From Ashinkailepas kermadecensis (Eukaryota > Arthropoda > Thecostraca > Neolepadidae): a stretch of 64,000 nt of DNA. The translations under genes were made by a program, and so were the position numbers. Below, one piece after another: positions 1,776-50,369 of this stretch. How positions within the stretch are numbered: position 1 is the first letter of the stretch; the number at the start of each line of letters is the position of its first letter. The notes under the pieces were generated by a model. It was not told the origin of the DNA, ran no database searches, and saw only the letters and a list, made by a program, of their open reading frames with translations. The stretch is from NCBI GenBank assembly GCA_034440615.1, contig JAOTOM010004311.1, positions 128,501 through 192,500 of the forward strand. Reading direction: 5' to 3'.

Positions 1776-1851
1776 ATCTGGTTGGTTATTAGGGTTTTAG
1801 GGCGCATCAACTGCATTGGTTATACAGCGCCCATAACAAACTTGGTTATGG
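1776..1851 (-). mobile_element. tail-only mini-retroposon, extended copy
   Basis: The minus strand reads GGGCGCTGTATAACC, then GATGCGCCCTAAAACCC and a TAACCAACCA tail, matching the SINE 3' tail family. An 11-bp direct repeat, GCAAACTTCGT, lies at 1765-1775 and 1852-1862 and is read as a target-site duplication. This copy has about 18 extra bases upstream of the usual 5' end, so either the 5' boundary or the duplication is less certain than in other copies. Confidence 0.6.
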
Positions 1852-1950
1852 GCAAACTTCGTTTCGTTTGTTTGCTATGCCAGTTGCTGAGATTATGGGG
1901 TGTAGAGATGGGAAGTGGGAAGTGGAAGGTGGGAATTGCGGACCGTCCTG

Positions 1951-4905: not shown

Positions 4906-5136
4906 GCGCACTCGACGCTCTTCCCCGTGACCTAACGGACTTGGCCGATTCACCGGCGGCCACAGGAGCGTATTGTTCCGGGCGTCACTCTGGGCGGGCT
5001 CGAGCCACGTTCGGCGGATTAACGGCTCGGTGACCGGCGCCACCGGGCGCAAAATGACCTTGGCAGTCGACGCGCCCCTAAACTCCAATCCACCACCACC
5101 ACCACCGGCGCCACCGGTCGTGTGTCATCCGTGACC

Positions 5137-19900: not shown

Positions 19901-19990
19901 TGGAGGAAGTGTAGCTGTCTGCGATGATTTGCATTTACAGACGCACTGCCGACACAGTATTTGCTTAAGCTGGTCTTCATTCCCCCATGG

Positions 19991-20049
19991 GAGCGCTATA
20001 TGATCAACATGGTCCATGCGTCCTGAAGCCCAAATAGCTAACTAACTAG
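19991..20049 (+). mobile_element. tail-only mini-retroposon (59 bp)
   Basis: Reads GAGCGCTATATGATC, then GTCCATGCGTCCTGAAGCCC and a TAACTAACTA tail. It is flanked by a 13-bp direct repeat with two mismatches: CATTCCCCCATGG at 19978-19990 and CATCCCCTCATGG at 20050-20062. The stem pairs GGA-CGC with GCGTCC around one bulged G. Confidence 0.75.
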
Positions 20050-20110
20050 CATCCCCTCATGGTAATCATAATGCATATGGATTATGATCCAACCATCATA
20101 ATCATTGATC

Positions 20111-20150
20111 CGCGAATGATCAATTCTGGTCGAAGCGCCCTAAAGCCCAA
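20111..20150 (+). mobile_element. variant tail-only element (about 40 bp)
   Basis: Sequence CGCGAATGATCAATTCTGG then TCGAAGCGCCCTAAAGCCC. It is flanked by a perfect 13-bp direct repeat, ATAATCATTGATC, at 20098-20110 and 20151-20163. The same variant occurs at 20598-20634. Its 5' part differs from the GCTATATGACC type, and the tail is almost absent or fused with the target repeat. Confidence 0.6.
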
Positions 20151-20259
20151 ATAATCATTGATCAAAATCCGATGATTTTTTTTCTTCAAAGCTGGGTGTC
20201 GAAATTGGGTACGATTTGTGTTTCGACCCGATCCCTTGGAGCATCCCCTTAAAGATGGT

Positions 20260-20597
20260 CGACTGACTCCGCCTCTTCCGCGCGGCCGTCCATTGGGCCG
20301 GCGGTGCGGCGGTGGCCGATCTGGACAGCACGTGCGGCCGTCTGGTGTCGACGCGCGCCCACGGCGCCGGCGCAGGTGGGCCGACTCGGTGCCGCGTCAC
20401 GCGGCGGATTTGCCTAATGAAACGGCACGTGTCCGGCCGGAAGCGGCGCGTTCCGGTGTGAAGAGCGTGCCACCCCTTCCGGCCAGACGGGCCGCGACGG
20501 CGCTAATCGATCCGAGCGGCGCCCGTGCGCCGTTTCGCCGGTGTTGACGGGTGAAACGTCGCCGGCGCCCCGGGTCCCGTGTCGCCGTGTCACCGTC
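20260..20597. other. CpG-rich island
   Basis: CpG-dense block between AT-rich, retroposon-bearing flanks. Chance frames only. Confidence 0.4.
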
Positions 20598-20634
20598 GCG
20601 AATGATCAAAAGTGGTCGAAGCGTCCTAAAACCC
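20598..20634 (+). mobile_element. variant tail element interrupted by a later insertion
   Basis: GCGAATGATCAAAAGTGG, then TCGAAGCGTCCTAAAACCC, matches the element at 20111. A second tail element has inserted into its 3' end, duplicating CGTCCTAAAACCC. Confidence 0.6.
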
Positions 20635-20691
20635 TTGGGCGCTACATGACCGATGTAGTCGATGCGCCCTAAAGCCCTAATAACTAACTAA
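20635..20691 (+). mobile_element. tail-only mini-retroposon (57 bp), nested
   Basis: TTGGGCGCTACATGACCGAT leads to GATGCGCCCTAAAGCCC and TAATAACTAACTAA. A perfect 13-bp target duplication, CGTCCTAAAACCC, lies at 20622-20634 and 20692-20704. GGGCGC and GCGCCC form a perfect 6-bp stem. It sits inside an older tail element. Confidence 0.85.
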
Positions 20692-20796
20692 CGTCCTAAA
20701 ACCCCCTGTCGCCATATTTTCAGGGTTTTTTTTTCAAGCCACAACCGTCTCCCTAATGACCCTCATGAGTTGGGCTGCCTGCTGAATTTCCCTGTT

Positions 20797-20990
20797 GTTA
20801 TTGGAGTTTCGGGGAGCATCGACTGCGTGAATTTCCCCCGTTGGTTCGTTATTGGAGTTTCGGGGAGCATCGACTGCGTGAATGTCCCCGTTGGTTAGTT
20901 ATTGGAGTTTCGGGGAGCATCCACTGCGTGAATTTCCCCGTTGGTTAGTTATTGGAGTTTCGGGGAGCATCGACTGCGTGAATTTCCCTG
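20797..20990. repeat. 50-bp tandem repeat, 4 units
   Basis: TTGGAGTTTCGGGGAGCATC, GACTGCGTGAATTTCCCCG and TTGGTTAGTTA recur at 20801, 20852, 20902 and 20952. Confidence 0.9.
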
Positions 20991-22386: not shown

Positions 22387-22550
22387 TGGTTGGTTATTAG
22401 TTTTACGACACGTCGACCGTTGAGTCATATAGCGTCGCCAATCTCTCACGCCGATTGGTCGCGGGCGAAGAGTAGCGACAGGTGAGATTCGAACCCACAA
22501 TCTTTCGATTGCGAGACGAGCATCTTACCCCTAGACCACTCGTCCCCTCC
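22387..22550 (-). mobile_element. tRNA-Pro-like SINE, full length, minus strand
   Basis: On the minus strand it starts GGGGACGAGTGGTCTAGGGG. It has an A box (TGGTCTAGGGG) and a B box (GGTTCGAATCT), the body GACCAATCGGCGTGAGAGAT and the tail ending TAACCAACCAACC. A perfect 14-bp target duplication, GCCGACTGGTCGGT, lies at 22373-22386 and 22551-22564. The head resembles tRNA-Pro in the D arm, but the anticodon arm has collapsed to CAATC-GAAA-GATTG, so it is not a functional tRNA gene. Confidence 0.92.
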
Positions 22551-22576
22551 GCCGACTGGTCGGTGATCTGCGTCGG

Positions 22577-24811: not shown

Positions 24812-24984
24812 CGGGGACGAGTGGTCTAGGGGTAAGATGCTCGTCTCACAATCGAAAGATCGTGGGTTCGAGTCTCACCTGTCGCTACTCTTTGCCCGCG
24901 ACCAATCGGCGTGAGAGATTGGCGACGCTACATGACTCAACGGTCGACGTGTCGTGCAACCAATAACCAACCATAACCAACCAA
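24812..24984 (+). mobile_element. tRNA-Pro-like SINE, founder of a tandem array
   Basis: Full-length SINE: A box TGGTCTAGGGG, B box GGTTCGAGTCT, body GACCAATCGGCGTGAGAGAT, tail CCAATAACCAACCATAACC. The 10-bp target duplication CTGAGACGAA is at 24802-24811 and 24985-24994. The sequence upstream of this copy differs from that upstream of the following copies, so this is the left edge of the tandem array. Confidence 0.9.
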
Positions 24985-25968
24985 CTGAGACGAATGCTGA
25001 GAACAGCACTCCGACTATTGCCAACATGCATGCATACTTGCACGTATGCACCAACAGCTTGTCACCGTGGGGACGAGTGGTCTAGGGGTAAGATGCTCGT
25101 CTCACAATCGAAAGGTTGTGGGTTCGAGTCTCACCTGTCGCTAATCTTCGCCCGCGACCAATCGGCGTGAGAGATTGGCGACGCTACATGACTCAACGGT
25201 CGACGTGTCGTGCAACCAATAACCAACCATAACCAACCAACTGAGACGAATGCTGAGAACAGCACTCCGACTATTGCCAACATGCATGCATACTTGCACG
25301 TATGCACCAACAACTTGTCACCGTGGGGACGAGTGGTCTAGGGGTAAGATGCTCGTCTCACAATCGAAAGGTTGTGGGTTCGAATCTCACCTGTCGCTAC
25401 TCTTCGCCCGCGACCAATCGGCGTGAGAGATTGGCGACGCTACATGACTGAACGGTCGACGTGTCGTAAAACCAATAACCAACCATAACCAACCAACTGA
25501 GACGAATGCTGAGAACAGCACTCCGACTATTGCCAACATGCATGCATACTTGCACGTATGCACCAACAACTTGTCACCGTGGGGACGAGTGGTCTAGGGG
25601 TAAGATGCTCGTCTCACAATCGAAAGGTTGTGGGTTCGAGTCTCAACTGTCGCTAATCTTCGCCCGCGACCAATCGGCGTGAGAGATTGGCGACCACACA
25701 ACGTAAAAAACAAAAAAAAAAAAAAAAAAAACAAACAAAAAAAAAATCAAAAAAAAACCCCCCATTTCTACAAACAAACACATACTTCCATAAACAAAAA
25801 ACTTCCCCGGGGGGGCGCTATCAGGTTGTTGACTCAATGGTCGACGTGTCGTAAAACCAATAACCGAAAACCATAACCAACCAACTGAGACGAATGCTGA
25901 GAACAGCACTCCGACTATTGCCAACATGCATGCATACTTGCACGTATGCACCAACGACTTGTCACCGT
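24985..25968 (+). repeat. 256-bp tandem array of SINE plus flank
   Basis: SINE starts fall at 24813, 25069, 25325 and 25581, exactly 256 bp apart. A fifth start at 25969 is displaced by an insertion. Each unit is a SINE plus about 74 bp of 3' flank (from TGCTGAGAACAGCACTCCG to TTGTCACCGT). Copies differ by very few bases, so the unit was duplicated recently after the SINE inserted. Every unit keeps A and B boxes. Confidence 0.93.
25694..25830. other. A-rich insertion within the fourth SINE copy
   Basis: After GAGATTGGCGAC the fourth copy is interrupted by about 130 bp, mostly A with some C, ending in GGGGGGGCGCTATCAGGTTG before the SINE resumes at TTGACTCAATGGTCG. It could be a processed, poly(A)-like insertion or an assembly artefact at a homopolymer. 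Confidence 0.6.
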
Positions 25969-26982: not shown

Positions 26983-27148
26983 AGGGGACGAGTGGTCTAG
27001 GGGTAAGATGCTCGTCTCGCAATCGAAAGATTGTGGGTTCGAATCTCACCTGTCGCTACTCTTCGCCCGCGACCAATCGGCGTGAGAGATTGGCGACGCT
27101 ATATGACTCAACGGTCGACGTGTCGTAAAACCAATAACCAACCACCAA
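26983..27148 (+). mobile_element. tRNA-Pro-like SINE, full length
   Basis: A box TGGTCTAGGGG at 26993-27003, B box GGTTCGAATCT at 27036-27046, the common body, and the tail TCGTAAAACCAATAACCAAC. The 16-bp target duplication is CCGAGAAGAGAAGCCG at 26967-26982 and CCGAGAAGAGGAGCCG at 27149-27164, with one mismatch. This is the cleanest single copy and a good consensus reference. Confidence 0.95.
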
Positions 27149-30213: not shown

Positions 30214-30420
30214 CGGTTGCGGTGGCTCAGTCGGTGGGGCTCGTAAGGACTCTTGCTCGTAAGGTGGTGGATTCGAATCCCAGAGCCGACGGGATTACCG
30301 AGTCCACTCGCAACCGATCGGTGTGAGGGGTTGGCGACCACCCTCTATGATCTAGCAGTTGAATGCGTCTTGAAGCTGTATAACATACGCAGTTGATGCG
30401 CCCCTAAACCCCAAATGCGT
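30214..30420 (+). mobile_element. second SINE type: different tRNA-like head, related body
   Basis: A box TGGCTCAGTCGG at 30223-30234 and B box GATTCGAATCC near 30270-30280 mark a tRNA-like head unrelated in detail to the proline-type head. The body CGCAACCGATCGGTGTGAGG and GGTTGGCGACC matches the body of the other SINEs. Two tail-like segments follow: GAATGCGTCTTGAAGC, then GTTGATGCGCCCCTAAACCC. It could be two insertions in tandem. Confidence 0.75.
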
Positions 30421-31830: not shown

Positions 31831-32109
31831 GTCTGAGGTGATCGTCACCGAACGGTCAGAGATGGGTGTCCGGGCCCGCGCCGGCGCTGTTGGTGGAATG
31901 GCCGGAGCCTGCGGAACTGGTGAACCTGGTGGTGCTGGAGAGCCGGCATAATTGGGGATGCCGGTGGACTCACTTCGCGTGTCTTGCAGTGGGGAAATGA
32001 CAGTGACTCGGGTCACCGAATGACACGGCTCTGGTCTCTGCGCGGCACCAGGACGGATTGTGACGTCTAACTGTGACGTCACTTGGCGCGATTGCTGCAG
32101 ACCTGACCC

Positions 32110-33874: not shown

Positions 33875-34036
33875 GGGGACGAGTGGTCTAGGGGTAAGAT
33901 GCTCGTCTCGCAATCGAAAGATTGTGGGTTCGAATCTCACCTGCCGGACTACTCTTCGCCCGCGACCAATCGGCGTGAGAGATTGGCGACGCTATATGAC
34001 TCAACGGTCGACGTGTCGTAAAACCAATAACCAACC
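33875..34036 (+). mobile_element. tRNA-Pro-like SINE, full length
   Basis: Same head, body and tail as the copy at 26983, with a small change in the linker (CCTGCCGGACTACTC). The 16-bp target duplication is GACGTGTGTCGAATTG at 33860-33875 and GACGTGTGTTGAATTG at 34037-34052, one mismatch. The first G of the element is shared with the duplication. Confidence 0.95.
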
Positions 34037-35800: not shown

Positions 35801-36030
35801 CTACGTGCTGGTGCTACCTGATGCTGGTGCTACCTGATGGTTGTGCTACCTGATGCTGACGCTACTTGATGCTGGTGCTACTTCATGCTGTGGGCTCAAA
35901 ATGATCTCAGTAGTCGAGGCGCCCTAAAACCCAAATAACTAACTAACTACTTGATGCTGGTGCTACCGGATACTGGTGCTACCTGATGGTGGTGTTCCTG
36001 ATGCTGGTGCTACCTGATGCCGGGCACCGT
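35800..36030. repeat. 15-16 bp minisatellite interrupted by a retroposon
   Basis: Units of TGATGCTGGTGCTACC with single-base variants on both sides of a tail-only element. Confidence 0.85.
35891..35946 (+). mobile_element. tail-only mini-retroposon inside a minisatellite
   Basis: TGGGCTCAAAATGATCTCAG leads to GTCGAGGCGCCCTAAAACCC and AAATAACTAACTAA. It is flanked by CTACTTCATGCTG and CTACTTGATGCTG (35878-35890 and 35947-35959), but the target is itself repetitive, so the duplication is weaker evidence here. Confidence 0.7.
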
Positions 36031-45506: not shown

Positions 45507-45571
45507 TTTGATTGGTTGGTTGGTTATTTGAGTTTTAGGGCGCATCGACCAGGTTTGGTCATTTAGCGCCC
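45507..45571 (-). mobile_element. tail-only mini-retroposon (65 bp), minus strand
   Basis: The minus strand reads GGGCGCTAAATGACCAAACC, then TGGTCGATGCGCCCTAAAAC and TCAAATAACCAACCAACC. The 8-bp duplication ACTGTGGG is at 45499-45506 and 45572-45579. It has a perfect outer stem GGGCGC/GCGCCC and the best inner stem of the family, GACCA/TGGTC. Confidence 0.8.
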
Positions 45572-45851
45572 ACTGTGGGCGAGTGTTTTAGGTTCACGCT
45601 TCCCACGGGTAGCCGTACACGGGTGAAATGGCGTACACACTCATAGTCACACATACTGACGCAAACTGCACACCGGTACAAGTTGTGTGTTGCATGAATT
45701 GAATGAACTGAATTTATTGATTGCGGGTGGACACACCGCCTGGACAAGGGGTTCTGATTGGGGGTGGGGGAGGGCGCACAGTTGGCCAGTTTGAAGTTAA
45801 ACTGCCACCATTCCTCTCCCGAGTGCGTTCAGCTCGCCATCACTGGGACAT

Positions 45852-46336: not shown

Positions 46337-46398
46337 AGTCAACTTGGTGAGGGGCCCACCTCACACTGCCTCAAGGATGGCCCGACATGAAGAGGGGT

Positions 46399-46458
46399 TA
46401 GTTAGTTAGTTATTTGGGCTTTAGGGCGCATCGACTACATAGGTCATATAGCGCCCAT
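46399..46458 (-). mobile_element. tail-only mini-retroposon (60 bp), type example
   Basis: The minus strand is ATGGGCGCTATATGACCTAT, then GTAGTCGATGCGCCCTAAAG and CCCAAATAACTAACTAACTA, exactly 60 bases. A perfect 14-bp target duplication, ACATGAAGAGGGGT, is at 46385-46398 and 46459-46472. There is no A or B box. The duplication proves that this short piece inserted as a unit. Confidence 0.93.
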
Positions 46459-46472
46459 ACATGAAGAGGGGT

Positions 46473-48735: not shown

Positions 48736-49258
48736 CCTGGCGGCGCAGCGTCTGTGCGGGCGCCGCGCTTCCGCCACACGACACCGACGGTCCCTCTCAC
48801 AGTCGCAGATCGCCGGCTGGCGTCGGCGGGCGCACTCTAGCCGGCGCTTCACACCGCCGAGCGTCACGTGTCGTGACCGTCGAGTCAGGCGACGACGGTC
48901 ACACCGGCGACGCCGCTCCTGCGCTCTCGGCGGCGGTGACTGGTTGGTTGGTTGGTTGGTTCGTTGGTGACTGGTTGGTTGGTTGTTGGAGCTTAGGCGC
49001 GCGTCGACGGCGTCGGTCATGCAGCGCCCAGGCGCCGCCGTTGTCGGCCGACGTGCTCACTGCACCACCGAGACGCTCTCCAGACGCTCCACGACGCTCC
49101 CGCTGTCCCGCTGCATCTGTGGCTCCCAGCGCGGTCGACCAGCCCCAGCACTGCACAGCGGTGACGTGGGGACTGCCCGCCGCGGGAAGGCCGCAATCGC
49201 CAGAAAACTGCCGCATTGGATGCAGATAGCCAGCGCTCCCGGTTCCGGCAAACCCGGT
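48736..49258. other. CpG-rich island upstream of the membrane-protein gene
   Basis: CpG-dense DNA on the 5' side of the minus-strand gene, a plausible promoter. It contains a decayed tail-only element. Confidence 0.4.
48946..49030 (-). mobile_element. decayed tail-only element, minus strand
   Basis: The minus strand reads CTGGGCGCTGCATGACCGAC, then GTCGACGCGCGCCTAAGCTC and repeated CCAACCAACC. No clear target duplication. The long CCAA tail suggests expansion after insertion. Confidence 0.65.
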
Positions 49259-50300: not shown

Positions 50301-50354
50301 TTGGCGCTATATGACCTATGCAGTCGATGCGCCCCTAAACTACAATAACTAACT
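50301..50354 (+). mobile_element. tail-only mini-retroposon (54 bp)
   Basis: TTGGCGCTATATGACCTATG, then CAGTCGATGCGCCCCTAAAC and TACAATAACTAACT. The 15-bp target duplication is AAGGATGCGGATGGG at 50286-50300 and AAGGATGCGAATGGG at 50355-50369, one mismatch. Confidence 0.9.
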
Positions 50355-50369
50355 AAGGATGCGAATGGG

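Follow-up and report, generated by a model that had tools for sequence, protein, structure and literature searches.

Tail-only insertions with a recurrent 5' end in the genome of Ashinkailepas kermadecensis: apparent by-products of LINE retrotransposition

What kind of element can a 60-bp insertion be that is bounded by target site duplications and consists of nothing but a hairpin and a repeat tail? Such an insertion occupies positions 46399-46458 of a stretch of the genome of Ashinkailepas kermadecensis (Arthropoda; Thecostraca; Neolepadidae), denoted the window hereafter (64,000 nucleotides, positions 128,501 to 192,500 of the forward strand of contig JAOTOM010004311.1, assembly GCA_034440615.1). 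An earlier note on this DNA had described it as a 60-bp unit between perfect 14-bp duplications, and direct reading bears this out. From 46458 to 46399 on the minus strand, the order is AT, a hairpin GGGCGC...GCGCCC (46456 down to 46424), a linker and TAAC repeats, with the following features:

46399..46458, minus strand: tail-only insertion, 60 bp (direct sequence reading)
46385..46398, no strand: target site duplication, copy 1, ACATGAAGAGGGGT (direct reading; 14/14 identical)
46459..46472, no strand: target site duplication, copy 2, ACATGAAGAGGGGT (direct reading; 14/14 identical)
46457..46458, minus strand: AT immediately 5' of the hairpin, the final two bases of GTTAT of long interspersed nuclear elements (LINEs) (LINE/junction comparison)
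46424..46456, minus strand: hairpin GGGCGC...GCGCCC, 6-bp lower stem and upper stem (folding; alignment pair counts)
46399..46423, minus strand: linker and TAAC-repeat tail (direct sequence reading)

The 14/14 duplication was equalled by one of 300 unrelated flanks of about 48 nucleotides each. Taken whole, the explanation that we favor, and consider probable, is that the focal insertion represents the very 3' terminus of a LINE, placed by target-primed insertion from a short template generated by a precise cut. The part that assigns it to a LINE and to a precise cut that recurs is very likely right, whereas the part that places the end of copying at the end of a short template rather than at a stop of the enzyme, which we infer, is an even call. 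Tail-only copies carry a LINE tail and target duplications, and their 5' end is sharp across several tail types. Target-primed reverse transcription is established for LINEs, and because target duplications and a repeat tail point to it, this would also be the mechanism of the tail-only insertions.

The focal hairpin folds with -14.9 kcal/mol (z -3.0); of the eight sequences folded, two have a z weaker than -1.7. In the hairpin alignment, 91.5% of the cells are paired, and this value and the covariation score each exceed 500/500 shuffles; three pairs are changed on both sides, a count attained by 339/500 shuffles, and the pair types are attained by 474/500. A covariance model seeded with nine short window copies and six tails of short interspersed nuclear elements (SINEs) from the window yielded 36 window matches up to E = 5, the seeds matching by construction; the focal insertion, itself a seed, scored 75.3 bits. 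The hairpin arms are inverted repeats, as expected of a miniature DNA transposon whose terminal repeats would be GGGCGC/GCGCCC, an explanation to which we give practically no chance: one arm is not terminal (25 nucleotides, made up of linker and microsatellite, lie beyond it), the duplications vary in length from about 8 to 18 bp instead of being fixed, and the same sequence terminates LINEs with a reverse transcriptase (RT).

The window tail copies share the LINE-like 3' tail and target duplications with tRNA-derived SINEs and lack the internal RNA polymerase III (Pol III) promoter of the latter. All 14 copies differ from the B box at 4-6 positions, as the earlier note had supposed in stating that there is none (275 of 2,000 random 60-mers have 3 or fewer mismatches), and A-box-like matches with 0-1 mismatch, found in 6/14 copies and in 1,117/3,000 control 66-mers, are at chance level. 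No tRNA was called at 46399-46458.

Clustering of the sequence upstream of the hairpin defined three LINE families by their 3' untranslated regions (UTRs), with 33 copies, or 29 without duplicates (12, 12 and 5), each family having its own tail variant. These LINEs end in the order GTTAT, hairpin, linker and (TAAC)n, with the junctions ...GAGTTAT/GGGCGC in type A, ...CTTGTTAT/GGGCGC in type B and ...CTGTTAT/GGGCGC in type C (the slash marks the start of the hairpin). The type C element L091 (L091 2564-8501) has two intact open reading frames (ORFs), ORF1 of 689 amino acids and ORF2 of 1,246 amino acids, ending 124 nucleotides before the hairpin. ORF2 contains the domains PF14529, PF03372, PF00078 and PF00075, that is, an AP-type endonuclease (APE), RT and RNase H, a set that fits an I-like LINE. 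Identity between L091 and L095 is 99.3% across 6,403 bases, so that the type C family was probably active recently. Among the best 120 of 432 matches, relatives of the L091 ORF2 reach 59% identity across nearly the whole length; another of these, P0096, has 40% identity and comes from a record for a shrimp nimavirus, in which it is perhaps a host LINE. No Rfam match at the gathering score was obtained in four LINE loci.

Window copies 20637 and 46456, the latter being the focal insertion, differ from the tail of L031 (the same element as L091) at 1 and 2 positions out of 56, respectively, so that this genome has a coding LINE whose 3' end is the tail-only sequence; among the sampled loci, there was no LINE with exactly the 46457 tail. 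The earlier note had assigned the tail to the local SINEs, which does not hold: the lower stem is GGGCGC/GCGCCC in the short copies vs CGACGC/GTGTCG in the SINE tails of the window, the linker differs too, and the tail is that of LINEs located elsewhere in the genome. A LINE inside the window was considered and rejected, given that the six short RT-like motif matches (five in a minisatellite at 32.7-33.1 kb and one at 31852) have no RT-like context and that 8 long window ORFs had no Pfam match. GTTAT and the hairpin also occur with other flanks, in L092 (minus strand, 3771, 3904 and 6308), L030 (1146 and 1827) and L093 (minus strand, 4999), and further LINE families probably share this 3' module.

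With up to 1 mismatch allowed, the 15-mer at the start of the hairpin is found 8,714 times across the genome of 908 Mb, against 20 times for the reversed pattern. We analyzed 80 exact 15-mer copies with their flanks, taken in contig list order to C1244 and thus not at random; C543, C726:1551 and C1055 (close to contig ends) and all copies beyond C1244 were left out. Removal of six duplicates, recognized by eye on matching flanks (L037, L044, L066, L073, L036 and L034), left 74 non-redundant loci, namely, 29 with a LINE 3' UTR, 4 short LINE remnants, 1 SINE and 40 tail-only loci, where the SINE (L046) and the GTTAT-keeping remnants (L042, L048, L062 and L083) were assigned by eye. The exact 15-mer anchor requires an intact 5' hairpin arm; a second set, obtained by a profile search of 310,805 bases, consisted of 49 unanchored LINE-type tails, of which 12 are short copies fixed by a target duplication, 13 have GTTAT, 3 are duplicates and 21 are unclassifiable. 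High-scoring matches within TAAC repeats or neighboring tails (L079, L041_743, L092_3904, L056 and L045) were not counted.

To place the 5' ends, counted from the hairpin start, we accepted duplications with a score of 10 or more, which mismatched flanks attain in 0.3% (24-nucleotide search) or 1.6% (200-nucleotide search) of cases. Candidate duplications were found in 32 of the 45 loci outside LINE clusters, and 28 of these, all in the 40 tail-only loci, lie at -4 to +1 (nine at -2, nine at -1, four at -3 and two each at -4, 0 and +1). The other four are that of the LINE remnant L042, at -9, and three in minisatellites, which are unplaceable. For L018, whose highest-scoring candidate reaches 9 (at -6), we used the duplication found in its duplicate, L034. 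L015 also has a stronger candidate at -162, which is part of an older SINE, and in L023 a candidate at -93 ties. The junction bases of the 28 loci match the LINE with T at -1 in 21/24 and A at -2 in 11/15, and with T at -3 in only 1/6, so that copying ended at -2; where the LINE reads GTTAT/GGGCGC, the tail-only copies keep AT and not GTT. In the unanchored set, which was free of the requirement for a 5' arm, the 12 short copies lie at -3 to +4, so that the ends do not smear through the hairpin, although a few lie inside it.

If LINEs or SINEs had simply been truncated at random, their 5' ends would be scattered, and LINE copies are indeed also cut at scattered places: two LINE remnants of the unanchored set (L030 and L088) have duplications at -49, and LINE copies cease to be homologous to their own family at -42, -66, -91, -102, -184, -499, -568, -642, -826, -844, -849, about -1066, -1113, -1848 and about -3400 or beyond (these are homology limits, not duplications; eight loci matched themselves and are uninformative, and L055 was unmatched). 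The 28 of 74 loci that fall within a 6-base bin contradict such truncation (binomial 9e-43 vs a uniform spread over 1,000 bases), which makes it a very improbable source. The earlier note had proposed a defined 5' start at the base of the hairpin and had named a smooth spread of 5' ends as the mark of truncated SINEs; the sampled genome copies have a peak, with 28 of the 32 duplication-bearing loci at -4 to +1.

The cut may fall within a second helix. In LINE ends, GTTAT before the hairpin is complementary to the ATAAC that starts the tail repeats, with 5/5 positions paired in 16/19 LINE rows; in SINEs, ATTGG/CCAAT flank the same hairpin in 3/4 rows, in a register shifted relative to the LINE helix. 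These pairing counts include G-U, have no shuffled control and draw on 19 LINE rows of which 13 were chosen for showing GTTAT, so that the conservation of GTTAT rests on the 29 anchored LINE loci of the three families. In a folding set of six sequences, one of them a wrong stretch and two of them identical SINE sequences, the outer helix is present in the minimum-energy fold for each of three LINE ends and for a SINE end; among the centroid folds, that of the SINE has it, as does that of one LINE, and those of the other two LINEs lack it. Because GTTAT and ATAAC hardly vary, the pairing is unproved by covariation, and we suggest, from sequence complementarity, that an outer helix joins the two in LINE ends. 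With the cut falling inside this helix, tail-only copies would be without most of its 5' strand (GTT), and for want of that strand they may be dead ends.

In the 45 loci outside LINE clusters, tail type A is represented by 12 loci (plus 6 uncertain), B by 7, C/C' by 5, D by 5 and E by 10. Short copies have tails from three or more LINE families, which is most simply explained by a recurring cut, made repeatedly in different LINE RNAs. The earlier note had taken the short copies for a self-contained mobile unit. A tail-only family transcribed from an external or read-through promoter and copied onward would account for the sharp 5' end, which resembles that of a full-length element, for the high copy number of the hairpin sequence and for the absence of tail types D and E from LINE clusters. 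We nevertheless consider it improbable, as the hairpin terminates LINEs of no fewer than three distinct 3' UTRs, whose respective tail variants all recur in short copies (types A, B and C each correspond to a LINE family), GTT and the B box are missing, the latter in 14/14 window copies, and ten short window copies have no sequence in common in the 400 nucleotides upstream. With the hairpin terminating such different LINEs, and with the tail-only copies devoid of most of the 5' strand that would form the outer helix, these copies appear to be by-products that LINE retrotransposition has produced repeatedly, with a precise cut, rather than units of their own.

The SINEs of the window, which end in a similar hairpin, provide a comparison. 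Three of those with a tRNA head have strong duplications at their far ends:

26984..27145, plus strand: tRNA-headed SINE, tail CGACGC..GTGTCG, 15/16 duplication at -111
33876..34036, plus strand: tRNA-headed SINE, 16/17 duplication at -110
22387..22552, minus strand: tRNA-headed SINE, 14/14 duplication at -113

Overall, head-bearing window SINEs have 5' ends at -110 to -118, with strong duplications at 22438 (minus strand), 27093, 33986 and 19259 (minus strand) and weaker ones at 24922 and 29317; the duplication search found none for SINEs 22600, 25812, 38422 and 51002. The 18 SINE-type tails include a rearranged one (window 25830), three from a single tandem array, and L018 and L034, which represent the same SINE; none of the 17 with readable upstream sequence (about 14 independent) is tail-only. 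Thus, the tail-only share is 0/14 for SINE-type and 12/24 for LINE-type tails (Fisher p 0.001), with the tandem array and the duplicate each counted once and with 12 rather than 13 GTTAT tails because those of L030 and L092 may be one duplicated stretch. Two SINEs are unusual in other respects: at 24813-25694, a SINE has become a satellite-like array of about 3.4 tandem units of 256 bp, every unit consisting of a tRNA-headed SINE with its flank, and in L046 a SINE body is followed by GGGCGCTATATGACC, intermediate between both tail kinds.

The comparison bears on how the fixed end arises. RT could begin on full-length LINE RNA, copy the tail and hairpin, lose its anchor once the hairpin to which it is bound is unfolded and copied, and drop off two bases on. 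Such an enzyme stop would agree with the description of a zebrafish LINE ORF2 that binds and requires the 3' stem-loop (PMC4176376) and with the 5' ends that lie inside the 5' arm. It is the main rival, an unlikely, if far from negligible, alternative, considering that SINE RNA with a similar hairpin has left no tail-only copies among about 14 independent tails, that the halt comes after the helix and not at helix entry, and that copying goes as far as -2 but no further (only 1/6 have T at -3). The end of a template is favored because copying stops at -2 and none of the 17 SINE-type tails is tail-only despite a similar RNA hairpin.

With a short template, the insertion could proceed in three steps. 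LINE RNA would be cleaved, or trimmed up to the protein-bound hairpin, leaving a 5' end at GUU^AU; the resulting RNA of roughly 60 nucleotides, starting AUGGGCGC, would serve as template; and the LINE enzyme would insert it by target-primed reverse transcription, copying to the template end. A separate small RNA is possible as the template, and R2 enzymes accept 3'-UTR-only RNAs in vitro. Tentatively, and with somewhat less than even confidence, we propose that several LINE families yield a discrete RNA of roughly 60 nucleotides, cut at GUU^AU within the outer helix and inserted thousands of times, so that the element recognized by RT would be, by itself, a complete template, and the site-specific step would be RNA cleavage, trimming or a regulated stop of the enzyme. 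Such a template would perhaps be the smallest retrotransposed RNA known.

Several observations weigh against the short-template explanation or narrow its base. The hairpin itself contains a few 5' ends (+1, +3 and +4, and that of a tandem array from about +17), as a stop of the enzyme would produce, and the SINE comparison is not decisive because SINEs may use another enzyme. Tail types D and E occur outside LINE clusters only and so may have another source. Twelve of the 40 tail-only loci are without a placeable duplication of score 10 or more, 21 of the 49 unanchored tails are unclassifiable, and the 80 anchored copies, taken in contig order by an exact match to the 15-mer, do not form a random sample.

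Among known systems, 5'-truncated LINE copies likewise combine a LINE 3' end with a target duplication; in the present genome, the 5' end is the same in most of the short copies that could be placed, and these are about 60 bp long. On present evidence, the tail-only class is a 5'-truncated LINE insertion with a fixed cut, a new variation and not a separate mobile element. As in the stringent LINE/SINE pairs (UnaL2, ZfL2-1 and ZfL2-2), a conserved 3' hairpin followed by short tandem repeats is common to LINEs and SINEs; unlike in these pairs, there may be an outer helix between flank and repeats, and copies made of the tail alone occur in abundance. ZfL2 tails, too, are described with 'upper and lower stem regions' (PMC4176376). 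Bov-A2 of ruminants, as described in PMC4324840, is also a retroposon of LINE-like units without a Pol III promoter, but forms a family of its own with two units of 116-117 bp and a linker, in contrast to one 60-bp unit from several LINE families. Mammalian tailless retropseudogenes are described as truncated small RNAs inserted probably by a LINE enzyme (PMC3747384); they are without a tail, whereas the present copies are the tail alone. No description of tail-only copies with a fixed 5' end, or of such a site-specific step, was found among the matches listed (titles or abstract starts, with subscription journals mostly outside), and the three papers matching CGCTATATGAC were unrelated by title. 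If the proposed explanation is correct, the genome holds a natural record of the minimal template of a LINE enzyme, about 60 nucleotides of hairpin, linker and repeat tail, and the fixed 5' end allows one to ask about the cut site in LINE RNA, or the release site of the enzyme, and provides a test of the role of the possible outer helix. In annotation, tail-only copies should not be labeled SINEs or separate families.

The hairpin 15-mer (up to 3 mismatches) has 13 matches in the window vs 1.45 expected. An ungapped search for target duplications at 26 tail matches of the window gave the following further copies:

20635..20693, plus strand: tail-only copy, 13/13 duplication, 5' end -2; adjoins, and is apparently inserted in, an older tail fragment (20594-20634)
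50301..50356, plus strand: tail-only copy, 14/15 duplication, 5' end -2
5045..5105, plus strand: tail-only copy, 14/14 duplication, 5' end +2 (or 0; the two GG overlap)
19990..20050, plus strand: tail-only copy, 11/13 duplication (weak, p 0.07 within short range), 5' end 0
20109..20157, plus strand: tail-only copy, 13/13 duplication, 5' end about +1
30371..30414, plus strand: copy of about 40 bp, 13/13 duplication, 5' end +3, nested in an old SINE tail
35891..35948, plus strand: tail-only copy within a 16-bp minisatellite
45515..45573, minus strand: tail-only copy, 8/8 duplication (weak, p 0.04 within short range), 5' end 0
48975..49030, minus strand: tail copy, duplication not recognizable
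1779..1852, minus strand: short LINE remnant with GTTAT, 11/11 duplication, 5' end -19

The headless copies 46457, 20636 and 50302 (all at -2), 5045, 20109 and 30371 have duplication scores of 12-14, and no target duplication was found by the ungapped search for window copies 49030, 12049, 21129 and 20594. Of five other copies for which duplications had previously been claimed, those at 20635 and 50301 have strong ones and those at 45507 (8/8) and 19991 (11/13) weak ones, while that at 35891 is unplaceable because the copy sits in the minisatellite. The 19-nucleotide extension of copy 1833 was considered as filler with an inverted repeat, an idea rejected because LINE sequences have GTTAT there. 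Two tail copies are nested, the 40-bp copy at 30371-30414 inside an old SINE tail and copy 20636 apparently inside an older tail fragment (the two together spanning 20594-20693). Tandem repeats identified by TRF make up 27% of the window, with many minisatellites; at 20797-20988, a truncated tail copy and a GGGAAATTC-like flank form about 4 repeats of a 50-bp unit, an array in which a target duplication perhaps seeded a minisatellite.
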